A DNA stretch of 28,888 nt from a virus: positions 1-28,888 of the IMG/VR virus record IMGVR_UViG_3300012928_001820, one strand, 5' to 3'. The notes under the pieces are model-generated. The model did not search any database. It was not told the DNA's origin and saw only the letters and a list, made by a program, of their open reading frames with translations. Positions within the stretch are counted from its first letter, which is position 1. Every line of letters starts with the position of its first letter. Made by a program: the position numbers and the translations under genes. Shown one piece after another: positions 1 through 28,888 of this stretch.

Positions 1-1798
1 GACTCTTAGGTTCACGTAAAAAAGGAATTTTACCTCTATCTATAAGTAAAAGTTGGTTAGGGCCACCTATTCTAACAGGGGATGAATCTTTTTTAAATTC
101 AATAATGTAAGGGGTGCCCATATTTGCTTGAGTCTGTAAAATTCGATTAGACTCACAATATTTAGTGTTTGGTATATTACATACACCATCGTTGTCAAGT
201 GGTACATATATCCTGTAATCGTCGTTATCCAGGACCACCTTTTTACGTATGTTTACTTTATTATCTGTTTGTTCATATAAATCTTCACCTCTTCTAAAAC
301 CAGGTCTTAATATCCACTCGTCCGAACCTTCACCACCTACCATTGTGATTTCTGGACCGTCACCATCTATTCGCATTATCTTATAAATTCTCTTGTCATA
401 ATCCGTTAAACCAGATTTTGGCATTTTGGGATGATACCTAACACCAAAATTCCATCCAGTAACTACGTATGGTTTGAATAACTGCATGTGTTTAGATGAA
501 CCAAGAGATTTGTGGATTATTATAATTTCATCACCCACATCTAATGTCATGTTTTTTTTTAAATCTTTAGATTCTTGTAAAGACTCTTTACCATACCTTT
601 CTGTAATATCTTTTAAAAGTATATCATAAAGTTGTTCTCCTTCTTCATCACTTAACCCATGTCTTAGTTTTGTATTCTCTACAGAACCTCTAATAACTTC
701 CTCGAAGGACCTACCTTGTTTTATTCTTCTTGCGTTAAGACCAGAAGTCTGTGCATCGATTTCATGGTCTTGAGTATAATATGGTAAACCTTTTAAATCT
801 TCTTCAGTTTCTCCAGGGTGAGTACCCATAACTTCTTGTTCCGCATGTCTAATTTCATGCCTAATATATTCAGTTAAGTAATCTTCTATATGTGTATAAC
901 TTTCAGGTTCCATAAGTGGATTGATAATTAAACCAATTTCTATTGTATCATCACCAGCGTAATAAGCATCTATATTAAATTCATCTTCTATCTCTTCATC
1001 TCTACCAAGAGTTAGTTCTAAGGTGAATGAATAATTTTCTATTGCATAAAGCATTTCATCTGGTCTTAGGTCTTCAGGTAAAAAGTAAGTCTTAGTTTCT
1101 GGTTCAGTAACTGTGTCTTTAACAAGTTTCATAACGTCATCAACCATCATTAAAGTTTCATTATAAAAATCAGTTTGTTCGTTTAAGTTATCTCTACCTC
1201 TATCTAATGATTTTAATTTACCACCTAATTTCTTTATTATATGATTAAACACATTTTTAAATCCTATTATACCCACACCTACAAGAACACTTTTTAAGTA
1301 ACCTGTGGGTGAACCAGGATGTATAAGACCTTGATTTATTAAGAAAAGTAAACCATCTAATATAGGGAAAGCTAAAAATGTAAAAGCTACTACATCAGCT
1401 AATGAGTTAGCTGTATAACCTAAGGATTCACCTATTTTAATTGCTATATCTTCAACCGATTTTAAGAAATCTAAAACTACAGACAGTCCTTTAGTAAGTC
1501 CTTTTTCTCTTATAACCTCCATAAGTTTTTGAACTTTATCTTTATGTCTCCCTACCAAAATCCACATAGCTGTTATGTACAGTAAGATTACATCTTGTTC
1601 GGTAATAGTAGGCATAGTACCAGACATCATTTCTTTAACTGCTGGTAACATAGCTGTAATACCAGTACCAAAGGTAAAAGTACCATCTATAATACCACCT
1701 AAATCCATTAAAGTTTTTTTGGCAACAGAATCTTTTTCTTCTATTCTTTCTAAGATTAATCCTTTTTGATTAATACCATTAATTAGACTGACATTCAT
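1..1798 (-). CDS. Large HExxH metalloprotease-like protein, putative virion protein (C-terminus beyond window)
   Basis: The frame starts at ATG 1798 and stays open to the left edge, giving 599 residues with no stop. Residues 1-195 are rich in hydrophobic helices (roughly 40-60, 68-82, 130-155, 168-182). Residues 314-318 read HEIRH, an HExxH zinc site, followed by HEIDAQ at 345-350, whose Glu346 could be the third ligand as in gluzincin peptidases. Residues 415-505 contain a beta-rich stretch starting VGDEIIII that resembles an SH3-like module. The N-terminus has an ILE tripeptide at 15-17, and LNE at 205-207 separates the membrane-like part from the peptidase part. I infer a head-packaged, possibly processed protein. 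It is divergent from DUF192, and a TATTTAT box lies 16 bases before the start. The peptidase call rests on the motif alone. Confidence 0.7.
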   Translation of the reverse strand, partial: MNVSLINGINQKGLILERIEEKDSVAKKTLMDLGGIIDGTFTFGTGITAMLPAVKEMMSGTMPTITEQDVILLYITAMWILVGRHKDKVQKLMEVIREKGLTKGLSVVLDFLKSVEDIAIKIGESLGYTANSLADVVAFTFLAFPILDGLLFLINQGLIHPGSPTGYLKSVLVGVGIIGFKNVFNHIIKKLGGKLKSLDRGRDNLNEQTDFYNETLMMVDDVMKLVKDTVTEPETKTYFLPEDLRPDEMLYAIENYSFTLELTLGRDEEIEDEFNIDAYYAGDDTIEIGLIINPLMEPESYTHIEDYLTEYIRHEIRHAEQEVMGTHPGETEEDLKGLPYYTQDHEIDAQTSGLNARRIKQGRSFEEVIRGSVENTKLRHGLSDEEGEQLYDILLKDITERYGKESLQESKDLKKNMTLDVGDEIIIIHKSLGSSKHMQLFKPYVVTGWNFGVRYHPKMPKSGLTDYDKRIYKIMRIDGDGPEITMVGGEGSDEWILRPGFRRGEDLYEQTDNKVNIRKKVVLDNDDYRIYVPLDNDGVCNIPNTKYCESNRILQTQANMGTPYIIEFKKDSSPVRIGGPNQLLLIDRGKIPFLREPKS

Positions 1799-1844: not shown

Positions 1845-2186
1845 ATGGAATTATCAATAGGTAAAAACATATTACCAATAGAAGTAATGGATACACCTAA
1901 CCAAAAAAGTTTGGGGATGATGGGTAGAAAAAAATTGAATGGTGGAATGTTATTTAATTTCCCCGATGTAGGAGAACAATCTTTCTGGATGAAAAATTGT
2001 ATAATTCCATTGGATATCATTATGTTAGTAGATAATAAAGTGACTAAAATACATTCTAATTGCCCTCCATGTACTACCAATTCCTGTGAAAACTATAAAG
2101 GAATAGGTAATAAAGTATTAGAATTAAATGGAGGAGAATGTAAAAAGTTAGGAATTAAATTAGGAGACACATTAAATTTTATTTAA
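1845..2186 (+). CDS. DUF192 family protein
   Basis: This 113-residue protein matches the DUF192 family along its length. Visible family features are GMMGRKKL near residues 24-31, GMLF, the QSFWMKNCIIPLDI core around 45-58, the HSNCPPC segment, and the closing stretch with NKVLELNGGECKKLGI. The biochemical role of DUF192 is not established. Many bacterial members are exported, but this one has no signal peptide or lipobox, so it should be cytoplasmic. The gene is convergent with the DHH gene and overlaps its 3' end by 8 bases. ATG 1845 is preceded by TATTTAT at four bases. An ATG at 1841 is in another frame and opens only a very short ORF. Confidence 0.82.
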   Translation: MELSIGKNILPIEVMDTPNQKSLGMMGRKKLNGGMLFNFPDVGEQSFWMKNCIIPLDIIMLVDNKVTKIHSNCPPCTTNSCENYKGIGNKVLELNGGECKKLGIKLGDTLNFI

Positions 2187-4092
2187 TCTCTTTACCTATT
2201 TTATTTAACAATTCATGAGCTAAACCAACGTTTTCCATAGCTTTAACCACGTCACTTTTCCCTACAATAGGAATCTTATCAAGTAAACTTTTTAATTTAT
2301 CTAAAATCCCAGGTACTTCATCTAGAGCCAATCTCTCAAGACCTTGTTCTCCCACAAAAGCTGCAAAATCACTGACACCAGTTGGGTCTGGAGCTAACTG
2401 GACTATTCTAGAAGTTAAATCTAAAAGGTCAGAAGTTACACTAAACATTTCTTTTTCTATAAGTTTAAGGTCTTTAGCCGTAGGGTTAGCTTTAAATTTA
2501 TCTAGAGCTATTTCTAGGTCAGTATTATGTTTTTTAACCTCATAAATGTTTTTACCTATTAGTGCTAACATTACTGGCATTCCTACCACACCACTTGCAC
2601 CGATAGCTGCTGCACCTAAATCACCTAACATATCGGAAACAAAAGAAGTTTCTAAAAGTGTTTTCTTTATGTTATATTTAATTTCGTTAATAGAACTTTG
2701 TTCTATTTTTTCTTTAAGTTTTTCTACCATTTGGTTTTGTACCCATTTTACAAATTCCACATAACGAGTTGTTTGACCTGGTTTTTTTCTATAGGAACCT
2801 TGAGGATTTCTAGTCCCTCTTGAAAAAAAGTTAAGCCCACTTACGTTTGTTATACACTTATGTCCACCACTATTGGCTTGAATTACGTCCCAAGCGGACA
2901 CCGTTATTCTATCTAAAATTTGTTTTTGTTCTTCATCGAGTGCTTGCCAAGGAGTGTCTATTATATTAACAGCTTCTCCATAATAAGGAGAATCCATTGG
3001 GGGCATATTATTAAGTTTGTCTTTATACAAAGCAAATAAATCCGAAGTTTTAAAACCTATACTACCTTCATCTGCTTTTGTCTCACCTATTCTTTTTATT
3101 ACTGAAACTGGAACTTGATGTTTTTTAAGTTGAGGTTCAATACTACCTAACACCTCTTGAGCTATATCAGCTAGATTAATACCTTTAAGTGCTCTATCTT
3201 CCTTAAATGGATTACAAGAAGCTTGTACTAACCCCATTGGCCAAGCTATCACTAAAAAGTCAGCGTCTGGATATATTTTAAAAGGTGTATAACGGTCATA
3301 TGAACCAGGTTTAAATAAACTACCTCCCCCATATTGTACTATGATATTACCATCTAAATTTAATTTATCACTTTCTATTTGGGATTGAATATAATCTTCT
3401 TGATTACGTTTCATTTGTTCTGGAGTCGCGAAATTCTCATCTCCAGCGATAGCATTTATATTTTGAAAAATATTCATCAACGAGGGCGAAGACCTATCTA
3501 CTAGTGATTCTAAGAATCCTGGTTTGTTTTTATAAGCCAATAATAGTTTATTGGTTAAAAGTGCTAACATCCATTTATTACTTGGAACAGTACCGTTAGT
3601 GTCAAACTTTTTAATGTAGTTCATGACATCATCTGGTGTTAAACCATGTTTTGCATAATCTGCACTATCTACAGTAGATATTCTCATTATATCATCACTT
3701 GTAAATATATCTTGTGGACTCACAATTTGTGAAAGAGTCTCAACATTAGACCTCGCACCTCTAAACTGAGTTGAAGTGTCATCCTCCACACCAGATTGAC
3801 TATCGTGGTGGTCAGTGTGAATAGTAAACATAGGTTTACCATGAGCAAAATCAACTAATACTTGCATTGTATCCCCTTCAGCTTTAGGTTTAGATACAGA
3901 AAATTCTTTATCACCATATTGTATAACATGTGTATCCACCACATTAATACCATATTTCTCAAGGTATTCTTTCATGGCTATTGCAGATACTACTCCATCC
4001 AGGTCTTGATGAAAATATATTTCAGCTTTAGGGTATCTTTTAGCTATTTTATTAATATCCTTTATGCCACTTTCTTTGATTATCTTTTTCAT
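2179..4092 (-). CDS. DHH/DHHA1 phosphoesterase with C-terminal hydrophobic module
   Basis: This 637-residue protein opens with a DHH phosphoesterase domain: DLDG at 30-33, DFAHG at 81-85 and the signature DHHD at 94-97, which bind two metal ions in this family. SGGH at 408-411 matches the DHHA1 substrate-binding motif. Relatives hydrolyse short RNA or DNA, pAp, cyclic dinucleotides, pyrophosphate or polyphosphate, and the substrate here cannot be told. Residues 468-481 hold INE and LLE tripeptides. They are followed by about 155 residues with a hydrophobic Ala/Gly-rich helix (490-515) and amphipathic helices, not part of usual DHH enzymes. The N-terminus carries IKE at 5-7. The gene lies 16 bases after the endolysin gene and has its own TATTTAT box. 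I infer a head-packaged enzyme, possibly cleaved between its two halves. Confidence 0.82.
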   Translation of the reverse strand: MKKIIKESGIKDINKIAKRYPKAEIYFHQDLDGVVSAIAMKEYLEKYGINVVDTHVIQYGDKEFSVSKPKAEGDTMQVLVDFAHGKPMFTIHTDHHDSQSGVEDDTSTQFRGARSNVETLSQIVSPQDIFTSDDIMRISTVDSADYAKHGLTPDDVMNYIKKFDTNGTVPSNKWMLALLTNKLLLAYKNKPGFLESLVDRSSPSLMNIFQNINAIAGDENFATPEQMKRNQEDYIQSQIESDKLNLDGNIIVQYGGGSLFKPGSYDRYTPFKIYPDADFLVIAWPMGLVQASCNPFKEDRALKGINLADIAQEVLGSIEPQLKKHQVPVSVIKRIGETKADEGSIGFKTSDLFALYKDKLNNMPPMDSPYYGEAVNIIDTPWQALDEEQKQILDRITVSAWDVIQANSGGHKCITNVSGLNFFSRGTRNPQGSYRKKPGQTTRYVEFVKWVQNQMVEKLKEKIEQSSINEIKYNIKKTLLETSFVSDMLGDLGAAAIGASGVVGMPVMLALIGKNIYEVKKHNTDLEIALDKFKANPTAKDLKLIEKEMFSVTSDLLDLTSRIVQLAPDPTGVSDFAAFVGEQGLERLALDEVPGILDKLKSLLDKIPIVGKSDVVKAMENVGLAHELLNKIGKEIK

Positions 4093-18691: not shown

Positions 18692-19360
18692 ATGAAAGAT
18701 AATATAATTAAAGATTTTAGTTTATACGCTAGAAGTATGAAAAACCCTATAAGTTCTACAACTTTATGGGATTATGAAAATGCCTTAACTCCCTACATCT
18801 TAGAGGAAAGAGAAATGAGAGCAACCCAGATGGACATTTTTTCTAGATTAATGATGGAAAGAATAATATGGTTATCTGGACCAGTAATGGATATAACAGC
18901 ACAAGTGTTACAGGCACAAATAATGTACTTAGATACGATTAATGATGACGACATTACATTACATATAGATTCTCCTGGTGGTTCAGTAAAAGCTGGTTTA
19001 GGTATTGTAGATGTAATGGAATATGTTAAATGTGATATCAGAACTTTAAATACTGGTATGGCAGCATCAATGGGTTCAGTACTATTAGGTGTGGGAACTA
19101 AAGGTAAAAGAAGTTCTTTACGTTACAGTAAAACAATGTTACACCAGTCTAGTGGTGGAGCAGTAGGTAACATCCAAGACGCTCGTATTACTATGGACGA
19201 GTGGGAAAAAACTAACAAGATTTTGTTCGAAATTTTAGGTAAAGCTTGTGGTAAAACAGCAAAAAGAGTAGAAAAAGATGCACAAAGAGACTTGTGGTTG
19301 GATGCACAACAAGCATTAGACTACGGAATAATCGACGAAATAATTCAAAAAAGAAGTTAA
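18692..19360 (+). CDS. clpP: ClpP-like serine protease, copy 1
   Basis: A 222-residue ClpP-type peptidase. IDSPGGSV at 92-99 forms the oxyanion strand, Ser126 lies in GMAASMGS, His151 in MLHQSSGG and Asp200 in AQRDLWL, so the Ser-His-Asp triad is complete. The extra N-terminal 40 residues resemble a propeptide or axial-loop extension. Cellular ClpP forms a tetradecamer fed by an AAA+ partner. A phage ClpP could work with the host ClpX/ClpA, replace a host subunit or act in head assembly. It lies one base before a second, divergent ClpP gene. Confidence 0.9.
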   Translation: MKDNIIKDFSLYARSMKNPISSTTLWDYENALTPYILEEREMRATQMDIFSRLMMERIIWLSGPVMDITAQVLQAQIMYLDTINDDDITLHIDSPGGSVKAGLGIVDVMEYVKCDIRTLNTGMAASMGSVLLGVGTKGKRSSLRYSKTMLHQSSGGAVGNIQDARITMDEWEKTNKILFEILGKACGKTAKRVEKDAQRDLWLDAQQALDYGIIDEIIQKRS

Positions 19361-19361
19361 A

Positions 19362-19961
19362 ATGAAAAAAGAACCAATTTGGGGAGCCAAAGGTGAAGAA
19401 ACCAATGCTTCCAGTGATAGTACAAATCAAATTACAAATGTAGACAACCACATTTATTTCTATTCAGAAGTAGAAAGACCTAAGATGTTGGAATTAAATA
19501 AAAAACTAAATGAATTAGATGTGAAACTTCAAACTACTAGTTTAAAGTTAGGGACAGAATTACCTAAAATTTATCTTCACATTAATTCATATGGTGGTAG
19601 TATTTTTGCAGGGCTTTCAACCCTAGATACGATTAGAAATACAAAATGTGAAGTCGTAACAATTATTGAAGGATGTGCTGCTAGTGCGGGTACAATGATA
19701 AGTGTGGTAGGTAAAGAAAGATACATGCATAAACACGCTTACATGTTAATACACCAATTAAGTGCTGGGAGTTGGGGTAAATATTCTGACCTAGTTGATG
19801 ATATGGAAAATAACACAAGGTTAATGGAGATGATAAAAAAATTATATAAAGAATATACCCAGGTTCCCGATAAAGAATTAGATGAGATTCTCAAACATGA
19901 TTTATGGTGGGACGCAGAAAAATGTTTAGAGTATGGTCTAGTAGATAAAATTTTGGATTAA
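19362..19961 (+). CDS. clpP: ClpP-like serine protease, copy 2
   Basis: A 199-residue ClpP-type peptidase clearly different from its neighbour. INSYGGSIFAG at 74-84 replaces the usual DSPGG, Ser108 lies in GCAASAGT, His131 in LIHQLSAG and Asp180 in KHDLWW, so the triad is kept. It has its own N-terminal extension with a predicted helix at 39-56. Adjacent, non-identical subunits suggest a mixed ring as in cyanobacterial or plastid ClpP/ClpR complexes, except that both here keep the triad. It is followed by a membrane-protein gene after nine bases. Confidence 0.9.
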   Translation: MKKEPIWGAKGEETNASSDSTNQITNVDNHIYFYSEVERPKMLELNKKLNELDVKLQTTSLKLGTELPKIYLHINSYGGSIFAGLSTLDTIRNTKCEVVTIIEGCAASAGTMISVVGKERYMHKHAYMLIHQLSAGSWGKYSDLVDDMENNTRLMEMIKKLYKEYTQVPDKELDEILKHDLWWDAEKCLEYGLVDKILD

Positions 19962-21756: not shown

Positions 21757-24700
21757 ATGAGACAAAATTCACTAAATATTAATGAAAATATTGACCCAGA
21801 GTTACAATGGGCAATAGATAATCAATACCGAACTAACCCAGAACTAAGGGATGAAATTTTAAGTTCAGTAAGTAGTGATGAACTAGATTCATATGTAGTA
21901 AATGTAGAACATGGTGATGTTAAATTAAAATACCCCCCTGAACAAATATTAGAAAAACTTACAGGATTATCTGATTTAGGTAATGTAGTAACAACCATGA
22001 GAGGTGGTAATGGGGTAGCTATTATTACGGACAAAGATTTGGTTGTTAAAATTACTGGAGATAAAGCAGAATATATAACAGCTAAAGAACTGGAGGGTAT
22101 AGATAGTGAACACATAGTTAAAGTTCATGAAAGTAAGGTTATCGACCCAGACGACCAAAGTATTTATACCGACGATAGTAAACCAGCATATTTAATTATA
22201 ATGGATAAAGTAGATTCTCCCACACCCCAACAAGAAAAAGATTGGTTTGATTGTTGTTGTAGTGAGGATAAACCCATATATGTAGATTTTACTGACCCTA
22301 ATGGTGATGCGGTAGTACATCCACCAGTAGATGATTATGATAAATGTAATAAGATTTATGATGATATAATGAACATTCGAAAAGAGGTTGAAAAAACAGG
22401 AAGAAGGTGGGTAGATATAGGTATAGACAATGTAGGTATGAAGGACGGTAATTACGTATTAATTGATTTGGGAACAAATGACCCACTACCACTTAATGAA
22501 AGTAAAAAAATTATAAACGAAGGATTTTTTGATATTTTAAGTAGTTTATTTAAAAGACCAGAACAAAAAAGTGATACTCCTGACGAGTTAAATCAATATC
22601 TACAACAGTTACAAGATACTTTGGACGAGAATGAAATCTATGACGAAGAGGTTTCCAGATTAGTGGACCAGTTAAAAGATTCAGATTATATAGACCTGGT
22701 AGATTTCCCAACAATGTTAAGAGGATTAGAAAACAAACTTTTAAAAAGTGGGAACAATAATGAAATTGTTATAGACTATTTAAGTAGGTTAAATAAATCA
22801 TTACCCAAAAGAGCTAAATACGAAAAGAAATTACTTCAAGGACAAGTGCCAGAAGACAGTGAGTATTACGATGAAGTAGAACAAGAAAAATCTAGAATAC
22901 CTAAAAAAGTATTTAAAACTGAAAAAGAACTTTTACAAATAGAGTTATTAAAATTACAGGAATGGGTAAAGAAAAATAATGTACCAGTAGTTTTAGTATT
23001 TGAAGGTAGAGACACCGCAGGTAAAGGCTCGACAATTAAAAAATTAACAGAATATCTAGACCCGAGATATTATAATGTAGTAGCTTTAGGTATACCTACT
23101 GAAGATGAAAAGAAAAATTGGTTCCAGAGATATGAAAAATATATTGAACCAGGTAAGATAACCTTTTTTGATAGGAGTTGGTACAATAGAGGAATAGTAG
23201 AACCAGTAATGGGATATTCTTCAAAAGAAGAGTACGAACAGTTTATGAAAGAAGTTGTTCCCTTTGAAAAAAGTTTATTAAGTAGAGGGGTCATACTAAT
23301 TAAGTTTTGGTTATCGATTACTCAAGGAAAACAAGAACAAAGATTTACCATTAGACAACAGTCCCCACTTAAGTATTGGAAATATTCACCAAACGATGAA
23401 GCGTCCAGAGAAAAATGGGATGAGTATACTGACTATAAAGAACGAGTATTAAAAGATACATCACATGGTAATGCTCCGTGGGTAGTTCTAGATTCTAACG
23501 ATAAAAGAGTTTCCGCATTAAATGCTATGAGACATGTGTTAGACCAAGTAGATTATGATGGTAAAGACAGTGAAACAGTACGACCAAAATATCCTGAAGC
23601 TATTAGTACCATTAGAAGAAGATTAGACGAACAAAGTGAAGGGGAAGTTAAGTTTACAAAAAGTGCAGAGAGAGTATTAAACACTGCGTGGTCGATGTCT
23701 AAAAATTCACCACATAAGTTTGTAGAGTTTAGGTCAACCTTAAATAGATTTTTTAATGTACCTCCTACTACAGCTGAAGACTTAACTTTTTTATGTAAAT
23801 ACAATATACAAAGGGGTAATGAAGAAGTAGAAGAATGGGTTATACCCTACATTTATGAATCCACAGTTTACGTTTATGGTGATTATGACACAGAATCTTA
23901 TTATGATGATTGTGATGAAGAAGGTATAAGTGAAGATTATAGACAGGAGTGTGAATGTCAAGAGGGTGAAATTATGGATGAAGAGGAGGAGGAATACAGG
24001 CCTTGTGATGAACAGGAGTTAGAGGATGTCCACTATGATGATGAGTGTGAGTGTAATAGTTGGGAAGACCCAACAATAGAATTATATTATTATCCAATAT
24101 ATAGAAAAACAGTATACAGTACATCTGACCCACATGAGTTAGGGTGTGTATACGACAGTCACCATGACCTAGATGATTATATGGGATGTTTATCAACGGA
24201 TGATGAGGTAGTCGAAGTGATGTCGGAAGAACATGAAGATGATACTGACAGAGTTTTAGAAGAGGACTTTGATTATGATAAAGAACACACCATAGCTGAC
24301 ACATGGGAATATGATATAGACACTGATGATTGGTATGGAAGTTATATGATAAATAAAATAAATGAATTATATCCTGATAAATCAACCCCCACACAATTAA
24401 ATGAAAATAGGTTAGGTAGTAGAGGTAGTGATATTAAAGACATACAACAAAAGTTATTAGATTTAGGTTATGATTTACCAAAATTTGGTGCTGATGGACA
24501 GTTCGGTCCCGAGACTCGTAATGCAATTATAAAATACCAAACAGATAATAATTTAACAGTTGACGGCATAGTAGGTCCTGAGACATCTTCTTTACTATTT
24601 GGAAGTAGTGATAAAAAATATCAAGACACAAGTGATGATGAAATTGTTGGTGACGTTGAACCTAACGTTGATATTAATACTAACACACCAACAGTAATCT

Positions 24701-27700
24701 TTGTAGGTGGTTTAGACACTAGAAGTGGTGACAAATCTTTAAGTCAACAAGAAGCTGATTTAAGAAAAGGTTTAGGTGGTAATTTTAAAATAATTTCACA
24801 CAGGTATACTGATGGTTCTGGTGCTGTTAAATCATTACAACAAAATCCTAACGCTTTTGTTGTTTTATTTAGTGCTGGAGCTAAACACGCTGAAGATTTA
24901 GTTAGTAATATGAGTAATCCATCTAAAATGTATATCGTGGAACCTTACACTTGTAGTTCTACTAGAAAAACAGGTGTTGAAAATGCTATAACTAAAGGTG
25001 TACCTCGAACAAATGTTTTAGGAGGACCAGATAATTGTGTAGGTAAAAATGTAGCTGGAACTTTCAGAAATAGTTATAATGGGAAAAGTCATTGGGACGC
25101 AGTTAGAGGTGTGGGTCAGATAATTAAAAATAATACAAGACTTAATGAACAACAATTATCCATGTTCCCAACTGGACAATGGAGATTACCAGTTGGTGAA
25201 GAAGATGAATTAGAACCATTAGAAAAAATGATACCCGAATCTATAGTCAAGGTAATATTTCAACAATGGGATAAAGAACAACCTCTTGTAATGGACGATA
25301 GGGATTTTAAGTTGTTTGGTCTACCTAACGATGAGAGATTATTATTATATTTAATAGTCAGGTACTTACAAAATACCACCAGACCTATTCCTGTTGGTAG
25401 AGTGTGGGACTGTGATGATTTAGTTTCCTTATTTAATGATGAAGATAGAAGTGCAGCACAGAAGTATTTGTGTGAAGAAGACTTTGATTATGAGAGTATG
25501 TACGGATATGACGAGTGGTACGAGGGGATGTTGGATAACTTAGACGATATGAGTTGGAAATATATTACCACTTTACTTGGTGTAGATAAATCTACAGCAG
25601 AAAAGCTTTTAGATGATAGTTACACAACTGCAGAAGAGGGAGAGATATGGAGAGAAAAAGAAGATGACATTCAGAAGATTAAAGATTTAATGGGATGGGC
25701 CAATGAACGTGCAGCAGCTGACACTACCTTTAATGCTATTAGACAAGATATTAAAGATAAAATAGAAGAACATTTTGAGAATGAAGGAAAATTTGATTAC
25801 GACCATAATGGTAGTATTGTATATGAAATTAAAGGAGACTTAAAAGATTACGTACAAGACCCCGACACTTGGGACAACATAGAAAGATTTAATAACCATG
25901 AAGAGTTTAGAGATAGACACTTACAGGATATTTTATATGATTTTGACTTAAGAAAATCAACCCGTGACGGGAATAATCCTCCTCTTACACGATATACTAC
26001 CTCTGATGTAATATTCAATTTATTCATGGAAAATGATTTCGCAATTTGGTGGGATAGTGAAAAAGATTATTTAGATATTGACGGTAAATTTTTCGACCAT
26101 TACTGGTATCCAGACTATGACTTCAACCAAGATTTTAGGGAGTACATGATGGAGGAATATTATGACGAACTCAGAGGGAATATAAATGAACATGTTAGTG
26201 ACAGTTCTAAAATCTTAAATGAGAATCCAGTCGCTTTAGTAGGAAATATACTTAAAACTCTACCTAAAATAGTGGGTCTGGAGGGTAACATACTTAAATT
26301 GGTAAAGAGTGCAGAATTACCTGTTAATCTAGGTAAAGGTATCAAAGGAGGTAGTATATTCCCTACAGAAGCTTTAACTCTAGCTTCCCAAGGTAATCCT
26401 ACATATAAAAGTTTATTGACGACATTACCCGCAACACTAAAAGATGGAACCAAATTTGCTAAACCACTAAACAAACATTTGGATGATATATTTCTTCAAG
26501 TTAATACAAAGAATAAAGACTTCACAAGAAAATTTAAAGATAGAATAGATAATGTAACGACTACATTTAATAATGCTTCCAACACACCCAGTGCATACCA
26601 AATCCAAGCTCCTGATTTTGGTGGTGGAAAGATTAGTATGAATATGACAATGAAATCACAACACCAGTGGGGAGGAGGTTTTCTAAAGGATTTAGATAAT
26701 GTCCACGACCAGGTGCGTGGGTCACTAAACGTTATAAGTAAAAACAATCCAACCATTACCGCATCCCATCCTGTAATGAAAGCTGGTAAAGATTTCCAGC
26801 GTCAACTCATGAGGATAAGGGGTAATAAGAGTGATGTTGGTGTAAGAAGGTTTTACAAAGAGGTAAGTAAAGGTTCTTCTACTTTTAGTAAAGAACTTGG
26901 TAAATACTTAAAAGACATTGATAAAAACGTAAGTACTATTAAAAAAACAGTTTTACCCACTACTAAAGTAGTAGAACCTGTGGTAAAAACAGTTACCCCT
27001 ACTAAAGCAGTTACGGATGTGGTAAAAACAGTTACTCCCACCAAACCAGTTGTGGATGTGGTAAAAACAGTCACACCTAAAATACAATCTTGGAAACTTA
27101 AGGATTCACCTCATAGTTTTTGGCAGAAAAATTACAAAAAAGGTAAAGATGGGAAAATAATAAATATAGCAGCCGATGGGAAGAAGGTAAGTGAATTATT
27201 TAAGACATTAAAGGCAACCACAAAAATAAGTCCACACAACTTAGGAGACGTAAAATCTTTATCTAAACGTTACACAGATTTTACTAAAGGGTTAGTTAAC
27301 GGTAAACCAATTACAGATAAACCCATGATGCTAAAGGAACTTCAAAAATTTTCTAAAGACATTTCTAAATTCAAAGATAAGATGCTCAATGACCAAAACT
27401 TCAGAAGAGGAAGTAGTTACTCTTTCGGTACCCCGGGGGGGTCATACGGACCAAAGATGAGCTTCAGTCAACAGGGAGAGAGATTTAAAAAGGAATTTTT
27501 ACAGAGGAAAGAAAAATGGGATAAGAGTTGGGACTTGTTAAAAAAGATTGATGATTCAATTTGGTTTCGGTCAGGACAACCAGGGGGAGCGAGCTGGGAG
27601 GATTTGAAGGGGATAGGTGCTAAACATTTTGTAGGAGGTATTTATGAACAAAAAAATTATGATGCTGAGATAGAATTAACGAATAGTGACGCTTACATTG

Positions 27701-28888
27701 AAGAAACACCAATTACAAAACAAGAAGCTAATATTCTTAATTTAGTATTGGATAGATTTAGTATAGAAGAACTTAATGAATTAGTATCAAATGATTTAAC
27801 AGAAATAGGGAGTGAGGTTGAGAATAAATGGATAAATTTTGTTAAGTTAATCGGTGAAACGGCAAATACTCCAGAAACATTTACTAAAAGTACCAGATGG
27901 GCAAAATGGATGTTGGATAACCTTGATAAAGCAGAGTATGTAAATGAAGAAGGTGAAATTATTATTGATTTTAATAATGTGGACATTCTAACTAAAAATT
28001 ACCCTTCGGTTTATGAAGTAGAGGGAGATGAAGCTTTATGGCAAAAAGAATATAGAAACGCCAAAGTATTCATACCAGCATTTGATAGGGACGATGCAAA
28101 TAGTAGAGCTGAAACAAGTTTTTGGGAGTATGACCCTGACTTTGAAACTTATGATTATGGTGACGCGGATTCTGATTATTTTAATATTGAAGATATAGAA
28201 CATTACAATGTTTTAAAAGAACAAATCATAGATACTGAAAATTTACCAGAAGAAGAGATGAGTCCTGACTTAGTTGAAGGTGATAAAGTATTTGTGTGGG
28301 ATATAACGCCTGAACCCAAACCACCAGGTAGTTCCTTTCCACATAGAAATAGTCCTCTTCACAATATCCCTTCCACAGTTATTGGGGTGGTGAGAGAAGT
28401 AATCCCTTTTGATAATCGACAGAGAAGGAGTGAGTACCGAGGAGGTATAAAATACATTATAGACACTTCTTCAGGTTTGATAGGACTATACCAAGGAGTG
28501 GAAGATTATAACCATTATGCCGATGATGGTGGAGGTAGAGATAAGTGGGTTAAACTAAACAAACAAAACCTACAAGAGATTAAAAAAATCACCGACCTAA
28601 AACATATTGAAAGACAAAAAGATTTTACATTAAAAAAATCTTTTATGGAATCAATAAATAATTTAACTGAAAAAGATATTACACCAACCAAAGAAAGTGT
28701 GGTAGAAAGTAGAGTTACATTGTTTAATTACTTAGACGGAATCACAAAGGTTAATCTAATAAAGGAAGAAGAGTTACCTAAGTTTTTAATTGGAGGTAGA
28801 ACTTGGACTGATAGATTTACAGTATCCAGTTCAATAGACTTAGACGACATTAAAGAAAACTCTAATAAGGTAAGAGATATTATACTTA
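21757..28888 (+). CDS. Giant multidomain protein: kinase-like, PPK2, peptidoglycan-binding (C-terminus beyond window)
   Basis: At least 2377 residues with no stop; an in-frame TGA two codons before ATG 21757 fixes the start. Domains: kinase-like at about 75-245, with GGNG at 83-86, Lys98, Asp220 and Asn225 (D-x4-N) and Asp237 in a DFG-like DLG; PPK2 polyphosphate kinase at about 385-598, with Walker A GRDTAGKG at 417-424 and FDRSWYNR at 471-478; an acidic Cys/Tyr-rich stretch at about 697-865; a peptidoglycan-binding repeat at about 888-949; an alpha/beta domain of unknown type at about 978-1122; helical and Thr/Pro-repeat regions; an SH3-like stretch near 2170-2280. INE at 8-10 and further (L/I)NE tripeptides near domain edges suggest a head-packaged polyprotein. 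Binding to peptidoglycan suggests a role at entry. PPK2 makes nucleotides from polyphosphate, or the reverse. Confidence 0.88.
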   Translation, partial: MRQNSLNINENIDPELQWAIDNQYRTNPELRDEILSSVSSDELDSYVVNVEHGDVKLKYPPEQILEKLTGLSDLGNVVTTMRGGNGVAIITDKDLVVKITGDKAEYITAKELEGIDSEHIVKVHESKVIDPDDQSIYTDDSKPAYLIIMDKVDSPTPQQEKDWFDCCCSEDKPIYVDFTDPNGDAVVHPPVDDYDKCNKIYDDIMNIRKEVEKTGRRWVDIGIDNVGMKDGNYVLIDLGTNDPLPLNESKKIINEGFFDILSSLFKRPEQKSDTPDELNQYLQQLQDTLDENEIYDEEVSRLVDQLKDSDYIDLVDFPTMLRGLENKLLKSGNNNEIVIDYLSRLNKSLPKRAKYEKKLLQGQVPEDSEYYDEVEQEKSRIPKKVFKTEKELLQIELLKLQEWVKKNNVPVVLVFEGRDTAGKGSTIKKLTEYLDPRYYNVVALGIPTEDEKKNWFQRYEKYIEPGKITFFDRSWYNRGIVEPVMGYSSKEEYEQFMKEVVPFEKSLLSRGVILIKFWLSITQGKQEQRFTIRQQSPLKYWKYSPNDEASREKWDEYTDYKERVLKDTSHGNAPWVVLDSNDKRVSALNAMRHVLDQVDYDGKDSETVRPKYPEAISTIRRRLDEQSEGEVKFTKSAERVLNTAWSMSKNSPHKFVEFRSTLNRFFNVPPTTAEDLTFLCKYNIQRGNEEVEEWVIPYIYESTVYVYGDYDTESYYDDCDEEGISEDYRQECECQEGEIMDEEEEEYRPCDEQELEDVHYDDECECNSWEDPTIELYYYPIYRKTVYSTSDPHELGCVYDSHHDLDDYMGCLSTDDEVVEVMSEEHEDDTDRVLEEDFDYDKEHTIADTWEYDIDTDDWYGSYMINKINELYPDKSTPTQLNENRLGSRGSDIKDIQQKLLDLGYDLPKFGADGQFGPETRNAIIKYQTDNNLTVDGIVGPETSSLLFGSSDKKYQDTSDDEIVGDVEPNVDINTNTPTVIFVGGLDTRSGDKSLSQQEADLRKGLGGNFKIISHRYTDGSGAVKSLQQNPNAFVVLFSAGAKHAEDLVSNMSNPSKMYIVEPYTCSSTRKTGVENAITKGVPRTNVLGGPDNCVGKNVAGTFRNSYNGKSHWDAVRGVGQIIKNNTRLNEQQLSMFPTGQWRLPVGEEDELEPLEKMIPESIVKVIFQQWDKEQPLVMDDRDFKLFGLPNDERLLLYLIVRYLQNTTRPIPVGRVWDCDDLVSLFNDEDRSAAQKYLCEEDFDYESMYGYDEWYEGMLDNLDDMSWKYITTLLGVDKSTAEKLLDDSYTTAEEGEIWREKEDDIQKIKDLMGWANERAAADTTFNAIRQDIKDKIEEHFENEGKFDYDHNGSIVYEIKGDLKDYVQDPDTWDNIERFNNHEEFRDRHLQDILYDFDLRKSTRDGNNPPLTRYTTSDVIFNLFMENDFAIWWDSEKDYLDIDGKFFDHYWYPDYDFNQDFREYMMEEYYDELRGNINEHVSDSSKILNENPVALVGNILKTLPKIVGLEGNILKLVKSAELPVNLGKGIKGGSIFPTEALTLASQGNPTYKSLLTTLPATLKDGTKFAKPLNKHLDDIFLQVNTKNKDFTRKFKDRIDNVTTTFNNASNTPSAYQIQAPDFGGGKISMNMTMKSQHQWGGGFLKDLDNVHDQVRGSLNVISKNNPTITASHPVMKAGKDFQRQLMRIRGNKSDVGVRRFYKEVSKGSSTFSKELGKYLKDIDKNVSTIKKTVLPTTKVVEPVVKTVTPTKAVTDVVKTVTPTKPVVDVVKTVTPKIQSWKLKDSPHSFWQKNYKKGKDGKIINIAADGKKVSELFKTLKATTKISPHNLGDVKSLSKRYTDFTKGLVNGKPITDKPMMLKELQKFSKDISKFKDKMLNDQNFRRGSSYSFGTPGGSYGPKMSFSQQGERFKKEFLQRKEKWDKSWDLLKKIDDSIWFRSGQPGGASWEDLKGIGAKHFVGGIYEQKNYDAEIELTNSDAYIEETPITKQEANILNLVLDRFSIEELNELVSNDLTEIGSEVENKWINFVKLIGETANTPETFTKSTRWAKWMLDNLDKAEYVNEEGEIIIDFNNVDILTKNYPSVYEVEGDEALWQKEYRNAKVFIPAFDRDDANSRAETSFWEYDPDFETYDYGDADSDYFNIEDIEHYNVLKEQIIDTENLPEEEMSPDLVEGDKVFVWDITPEPKPPGSSFPHRNSPLHNIPSTVIGVVREVIPFDNRQRRSEYRGGIKYIIDTSSGLIGLYQGVEDYNHYADDGGGRDKWVKLNKQNLQEIKKITDLKHIERQKDFTLKKSFMESINNLTEKDITPTKESVVESRVTLFNYLDGITKVNLIKEEELPKFLIGGRTWTDRFTVSSSIDLDDIKENSNKVRDIIL
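26947..27081 (+). repeat. Thr/Pro/Val tandem repeat in the giant gene
   Basis: Units of 39 bases start at 26980, 27019 and 27058 (the last incomplete), with a degenerate unit before them. They encode copies of VVKTVTPTKxVxD. Third-position changes between units show the peptide rather than the DNA is maintained. It is probably an extended linker or a spacer between domains. Confidence 0.8.

Follow-up and report, generated by a model that had tools for sequence, protein, structure and literature searches.

The stretch of DNA analysed here (the window) is a 28,888-base fragment from IMG/VR, virus record IMGVR_UViG_3300012928_001820. Its last gene (nt 21,757–28,887, plus strand) is a giant open reading frame (ORF) of 2377 amino acids (aa) with an open 3' end; the homologue at locus L001 is about 40 aa longer at the C-terminal end. 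A first-pass annotation of the window had reported nine copies of the tripeptide (L/I)NE in this protein, most of them near domain borders, and had proposed a polyprotein cut by a prohead protease. All nine were confirmed in the 2377-aa ORF (beginning at residues 8, 246, 253, 868, 881, 1129, 1476, 1487 and 2006), and the comparisons described below largely support the interpretation, in a form sharpened from LNE to (L/I)xE. Relatives of the giant protein were found in the viral contigs G001 (194,481 bases), G011–G014, G016 (190,908 bases) and G017 (245,874 bases). The nearest is the homologue in G001, with 90% identity over the first 886 residues; those in the four contigs G011–G014 are 1115–1116 aa long.

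A Pfam search of the giant protein, whole and in pieces, returned two families above cut-off, PPK2 (polyphosphate kinase; residues 383–604, nt 22,903–23,568, E = 1.2e-73) and PG_binding_1 (peptidoglycan binding; residues 889–945, nt 24,421–24,591, E = 9e-17), and no other family, peptidases included. The peptidoglycan-binding domain that the first-pass annotation had placed beside the sites was thus recovered, whereas its 'kinase-like' and 'alpha/beta' domains found no Pfam support. Six further modules (K, X, Y, Z, W and GD) were delimited by comparison with the relatives. All of the following features lie on the plus strand. A short N-terminal leader, MRQNSLNINE, ends in INE 8–10 (nt 21,778–21,786), which aligns with IKE in G001, SGE in G016 and LQE in G017. 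Module K follows (residues 11–245, nt 21,787–22,491; no Pfam match) and its junction with PPK2 carries LNE 246–248 (nt 22,492–22,500; LTE in G001, LNE in G016, LKE in G017). The PPK2 module starts at INE 253–255 (nt 22,513–22,521), present also in G001 and G011, and meets module X (residues 626–867, nt 23,632–24,357) at LDE 623–625 (nt 23,623–23,631), which is LNE in G011 and stands there before module Y, module X lying ahead of PPK2 in that contig. Between X and the peptidoglycan-binding block are two tripeptides, INE 868–870 (nt 24,358–24,366) and, at the start of the block, LNE 881–883 (nt 24,397–24,405); the block ends at LNE 1129–1131 (nt 25,141–25,149). Module Y (residues 1132–1475, nt 25,150–26,181), conserved in four homologues and likewise with no Pfam match, is bounded by INE 1476–1478 (nt 26,182–26,190), and module Z, unique to the window protein among those compared, begins at LNE 1487–1489 (nt 26,215–26,223). 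The Z/W junction has IYE 1962–1964 (nt 27,640–27,648), not LNE, and LKE 2153–2155 (nt 28,213–28,221) precedes a GD module (SPDLVEGDKVFVWD). The remaining copy, LNE 2006–2008 (nt 27,772–27,780), lies within module W and is not kept in the more distant homologues (G016 and G017), so that the earlier suspicion of a non-site is upheld and this copy is probably due to chance. Structure models of residues 1–640 and 866–1500, made from small alignments, were poor (mean predicted local distance difference test scores of 45.8 and 47.5) and were not used; a structureless stretch at residues 236–275, around LNE 246 and INE 253, means little at such model quality.

Shuffling of the giant protein gave a mean of 1.63 ± 1.27 (L/I)NE, close to the two or so that had been estimated from composition, and none of 1000 shuffles reached nine. 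Eighteen other variants, differing in order or in a single residue, occur 0–4 times each (e.g., (L/I)EN 1, EN(L/I) 2, N(L/I)E 2, (L/I)DE 2 and (L/I)ND 1). Codons differ between the sites, with six distinct 9-mers among the nine, so the tripeptides are a property of the protein; a DNA-level repeat as their source was ruled out on the same grounds. The remainder of the window (34 further ORFs, non-overlapping and 60 aa or longer) holds five (L/I)NE against 4.75 expected. In G001 combined with G018, a contig from the same metagenome that is described below, the background itself exceeds composition by a factor of about 1.6 (247 ORFs hold 89, with 54.8 expected), and the excess in the giant ORF stands after correction for it. 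Among 250 ORFs of these two contigs, the three largest excesses belong to a 2007-aa putative polyprotein, the scaffold protein and the homologue of the giant protein, in that order. Chance in an AT-rich gene for an N- and E-rich protein would be helped by a composition that favours L, I, N and E, and (L/I)xE as a whole is not significantly enriched, but the shuffles, the flat counts of the order variants and the coincidence of the tripeptides with module boundaries (P = 0.003–0.007, see below) leave this explanation hardly credible.

The homologues show that modules have been gained, lost and reordered at the tripeptides. The peptidoglycan-binding block, from LNE 881–883 to LNE 1129–1131, is missing from G001 and G016. 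The end of module X in G001 (...PTKLNE) is joined directly to QQMSLFPTG, where the window protein has LNE, the block, a second LNE and QQLSMFPTG; G016 has the same kind of join, and the shared downstream sequence is QQ(L/M)(S/T)(M/L)FPTG. Module Z, from INE 1476–1478 to IYE 1962–1964, is also missing from G001, in which module W comes straight after INE (...RGNINE, then QKNYDAEIEL); the window protein has QKNYDAEIEL after Z and IYE. The order in G011 is X, LNE, INE, PPK2, LNE, Y, so that X, which comes after PPK2 in the window, is ahead of it there. Module K is followed by PPK2 in the window and G001, by X in G016 and by a GD module in G017, with an (L/I)xE ahead of each. Also present in related chains are PAP2 domains, which pass the cut-off, and HD domains, which narrowly miss it. 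Boundaries defined blind to the motif, from all 27 local alignments, fell into 14 clusters. Four of these have an (L/I)NE no more than 5 aa away (null 0.55, P = 0.003), and for seven of the nine (L/I)NE a boundary can be found at a distance of 15 aa or less (null 1.57, P = 0.007). The result was the same with 22 of the 27 alignments, omitting the two of G001_2007 and one each of G011_538, G016_938 and G017_3039.

The middle residue at the junctions varies among homologues (N, K, T, Q, R, D or H), while orthologous junctions mostly keep L/I and E (LNE/LTE/LKE at one, INE/IKE/LQE at another). It follows that the rule is (L/I)xE, and these alignments largely support it as the general site, with LNE as the form preferred in this lineage. 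The earlier view, framed around LNE, thus placed the tripeptides correctly at borders and proved too narrow, as LKE, LTE, LQE or LDE occupy the same junctions in some homologues. By the same comparison, LDE 623–625, IYE 1962–1964 and LKE 2153–2155 are assigned to the junction set of the window protein; these three and all nine (L/I)NE conform to L/I-X-E. All 22 GD modules in six polyprotein chains have an (L/I)xE within 18 aa upstream (null 5.46, maximum 13 in 2000), a pattern that was set after the sequences had been inspected and in a sample that includes some mutual orthologues. A tally of 30 junction tripeptides was not used as evidence because they had been picked by hand. Two second polyproteins were observed, of 2007 aa (L001:19292–25315) and 3039 aa (L095:5366–14485), each with many GD modules of about 110 residues (NPxLxxGDxIxVID) preceded by (L/I)xE.

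The same tripeptide occurs in the head proteins. The major capsid protein of G017 is Gp23-like (Pfam, E = 1.1e-74). In alignment with T4 gp23 (sequence from the public record), the T4 site FLTE-A (hyphen at the cut) falls on HLINE-A in G017, QLISE-A in Mel-JY01 and GLNE-N in another S77-bearing clade. INE stands at this maturation position in 80 of 80 related capsid proteins among the matches listed, and the next residue is A, S, G, T or N in 79 of them and Q in one; in the other S77 clade, seven of eight capsid proteins have LNE there and one has LME. The scaffold proteins are rich in (L/I)NE, with eight against 0.59 expected in G017 and five against 0.44 in G018. T4 gp21 cleaves after L/I-X-E (PMC9026906). 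Recurrence of this rule in the capsid protein and the scaffold therefore points to a single protease, S77. An uncut multidomain virion or lysis protein, in which LNE would be no more than a favoured linker or helix-cap tripeptide, would suit the peptidoglycan-binding domain and the M23, SLT and lysozyme-like domains of neighbouring proteins, all of which fit a role in entry or lysis, and the virion RNA polymerase of N4 is packaged unprocessed (PMC5512222). A linker preference alone, however, fails to explain INE at the capsid site or the rank of the scaffold among the three richest of 250 ORFs, and this reading is very unlikely.

A candidate for the protease was found in two contigs. G017 has two long homologous chains on the same contig as an S77 protease (E = 3.6e-24, above cut-off), the scaffold and the Gp23-like capsid protein. 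G018, which was reached through the capsid search, has S77 (E = 6.9e-25, above cut-off), the scaffold and the capsid protein. Alignment with T4 gp21 showed matching conserved His and Ser motifs in S77. G018 and G001 share 156 bases, 155 of them identical, at the end of the former and the start of the latter, with the gene order as in G017; G016 and G001 both stop beside tail genes whose neighbour in G017 and G018 is the capsid gene. The overlap is strong evidence, though no proof, that G018 and G001 are one genome. Because of this overlap and the matching gene order, the lack of S77 in G001 is best read as a contig break; a Gp23 search of G001 likewise gave no match. No S77 match was obtained in the five contigs G011–G015, all of them short fragments. 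S77 was first encountered in G002, but this contig was not counted as evidence that protease and giant protein occur together, because its fragment of the latter runs off the contig end and departs from the window protein at residue 214.

A different enzyme could be considered, namely a zincin-type peptidase encoded next door. Both neighbouring proteins have HExxH motifs (HEIRHAEQ in the protein at the left end of the window, HELVHHKQ in a 436-aa neighbour at L001), the 436-aa protein weakly matches Pfam Peptidase_M78 (E = 0.018, below cut-off), and MPTase domains have been proposed to process polyvalent proteins (Iyer et al., PMC5512222). The recurrence of L/I-X-E at the capsid maturation position and in the scaffold argues instead for S77, and the left protein itself bears the same tripeptide; cutting by a zincin is distinctly unlikely.

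Stand-alone versions of the modules provide a further comparison. Three uncultured huge phages (LR756502, LR756501 and LR745206), each with S77 matches that fall short of the family cut-off, encode the PPK2 homologue on its own, behind a T4-like targeting leader that ends in KFINE, NFMNE and KFINE, respectively. Another module, from the 2007-aa chain of G001, is also separate in these phages and stands behind DKLNE, FLILE and FLIQE. The tripeptides might then be fusion scars, i.e., leftover capsid-targeting leaders of fused genes that mark borders, are no longer cut and sit in one working chain. The stand-alone PPK2 leader does lie at the same border, where a fusion would leave (I/M)NE. Unused linkers should nevertheless lose the motif, yet orthologous junctions mostly retain L/I and E despite swaps of the middle residue, and (L/I)xE is kept ahead of 22 of 22 GD modules in otherwise divergent linkers, which makes scars an improbable account.

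The T4 targeting leader is ten residues long, with positions 4 and 7 serving targeting and positions 8 and 10 processing (PMC9026906). Leaders of this shape (MKSLNEFLNE, MKSYKSFLNE) were found in 16 of 148, 8 of 113 and 6 of 204 ORFs in three S77-bearing record sets, the first of which holds near-identical contigs; control counts in internal stretches beginning with Met were 5 of 836, 2 of 504 and 2 of 1089. The short leader of the window protein differs from the T4 consensus; clear T4-like leaders were confined to other S77-bearing relatives. Another S77-bearing clade (loci L017–L024, L060, L061 and G009) encodes many small proteins with a near-identical ten-residue leader (MKSLNEFLNE, MKALNEFLNE or MKQLNNFLNE), possibly a tag that directs proteins to the head and would allow cargo to be listed. 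A weaker type of leader was seen at residues 3–24 of ORFs in G001, G018 and G017 (MKIKLSEEQYKKLMNE, MKIRITESQYNLILE, MKIVITEEQLQKILKIKSTLNE); it is about 2.5-fold more frequent than in controls (16 of 250 ORFs carry it, compared with 6 of 250 and 3 of 202 control stretches) and is a lead only.

Several other genes of the region deserve mention. The left protein (nt 2–1798, minus strand) has LNE 205–207 (nt 1178–1186, minus strand) at the border between a hydrophobic part and the zincin-like part with HEIRHAEQ, and a DHH protein (nt 2179–4092) has INE 468–470 (nt 2683–2691, minus strand). The first-pass annotation had likened these two to the sites of the giant protein. They are present as reported and are two of the five (L/I)NE in the rest of the window, which together are at background level. 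The left protein also has a GD-like module behind LQE and looks like a second, smaller polyprotein; it and the protein with HELVHHKQ (L001:16612–17922) may be zincin-type peptidases. Upstream of the giant ORF (nt 18,692–19,961) are two adjacent genes for what we take to be ClpP-like proteases (222 and 199 aa), with glutaredoxin- and thioredoxin-like genes beside them. A 621-aa protein of G018 (53,794–55,659) and G017 (225,736–227,601) is presumably DnaK-like, to judge from its start (VIGIDLGTTNSCV), and contains three or four (L/I)NE.

Taken together, the giant ORF quite probably specifies a cargo polyprotein that is cut in the prohead by a gp21-like S77 protease. In a T4-like marine phage, the chain of virion-internal cargo would be taken into the prohead core, where an S77 enzyme encoded elsewhere in the genome and acting in trans would cut it after the Glu of the (L/I)xE linkers, which in this lineage are mostly (L/I)NE. 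Module K, the PPK2 polyphosphate kinase, module X, the peptidoglycan-binding block and further modules would be released before DNA packaging, and the separate proteins would then be delivered to the next cell. On balance, we lean slightly towards a broader picture, in which T4-like marine phages of one lineage, whose genomes reach at least some 245 kb (the size of the largest single contig), pack a host-takeover kit as string-of-beads polyproteins of 1100–3000 aa. In that picture, one and the same leader would carry many enzymes into the head, in equal amounts, the capsid protease would free them during maturation, and the (L/I)xE linker would serve also as a joint where modules could be inserted, lost or shuffled with processing intact.

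Several observations weigh against the prohead-protease interpretation. Searches of the 28.9-kb window fragment and of the G001 contig alone gave no S77 match; the protease implied by the first-pass annotation was found in G018, the contig that overlaps this nearest relative. The motif is short and degenerate, and (L/I)xE as a whole is barely raised in the giant ORF (35 against 28.3; a fraction of 0.096 of shuffles reach 35). In the distant homologues, (L/I)NE is near chance (2 against 1.17 in G016, 3 against 1.74 in G017), these proteins using other (L/I)xE forms, and the leader site of G016 reads SGE. T4-type leaders are not enriched in the lineage of the window: 2 of 169 ORFs in G001 and 0 of 31 in the window have one, and the 211 ORFs of G017 hold five (L/I)NE near residues 5–15. 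The homologous piece in G002 (L002:3–611), 97% identical over residues 70–214, diverges where the window protein has no (L/I)xE; it lies at the end of a 12-kb contig, has an unrelated tail after residue 214 and may be a real mosaic or an assembly chimera. The sequences show the enrichment of the sites, the exchange of modules at them, a protease in the contig overlapping the nearest relative, and the tripeptide at the capsid site and throughout the scaffold, whereas cleavage itself, head localisation, injection and the roles of the modules in the host are inferred.

The internal cargo of phages is usually hard to recognise, as it shares no common domain. If the motif of the head protease delimits modules, the cargo of T4-like huge phages could be listed from sequence, module by module, and the borders would show where to clone. 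Shuffling of cargo modules would then have a simple account, and a polyphosphate kinase among the probable injected enzymes leads to the testable idea of energy or nucleotide supply in early infection, or of depletion of host polyphosphate. Double-stranded DNA phages would also gain a strategy of making polyproteins that the capsid protease then processes, one not described for them in the literature searched (open PMC papers). That literature held no description of a phage polyprotein or enzyme chain divided by a prohead protease, and no paper linking polyphosphate kinase with jumbo phages or virions, or reporting a phage-encoded PPK2.

Three known systems invite comparison. The heads of giant phages such as phiKZ and SPN3US (gp175/gp245) resemble the proposed arrangement in having a divergent relative of gp21 and many internal, ejected proteins cut after Glu. 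SPN3US differs in its motif, AXE (PMC10052503), and in that its observed cuts remove propeptides rather than dividing multi-enzyme chains. Polyvalent proteins (Iyer et al. 2017, PMC5512222) are likewise large mosaic chains of unrelated enzymatic modules, and the giant protein combines PPK2 and PG_binding_1 with K, X, Y, Z, W and GD in one chain, in an order that is permuted in G011. They are thought to be delivered with the DNA, as we infer for this chain, and their processing is ascribed to an embedded zincin or, in some cases, to a C-terminal assemblin-like peptidase (same source). In contrast, Pfam found no embedded peptidase in the giant chain; the matching protease is a separate head gene, and HExxH motifs are confined to neighbours. 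The closest parallel is processing by T4 gp21 (of gp22, gp67, gp68, IPI-III, Alt, gp23 and gp24), with which the proposed arrangement would share an S77 protease cutting after L/I-X-E, a Gp23-like capsid protein bearing its site at the same place, a site-rich scaffold and short leaders, which take the ten-residue form in related phages. The internal proteins of T4 are, however, encoded by separate genes and each loses a terminal propeptide, whereas the giant protein links many unrelated modules in a single chain and has a putative site at each border.

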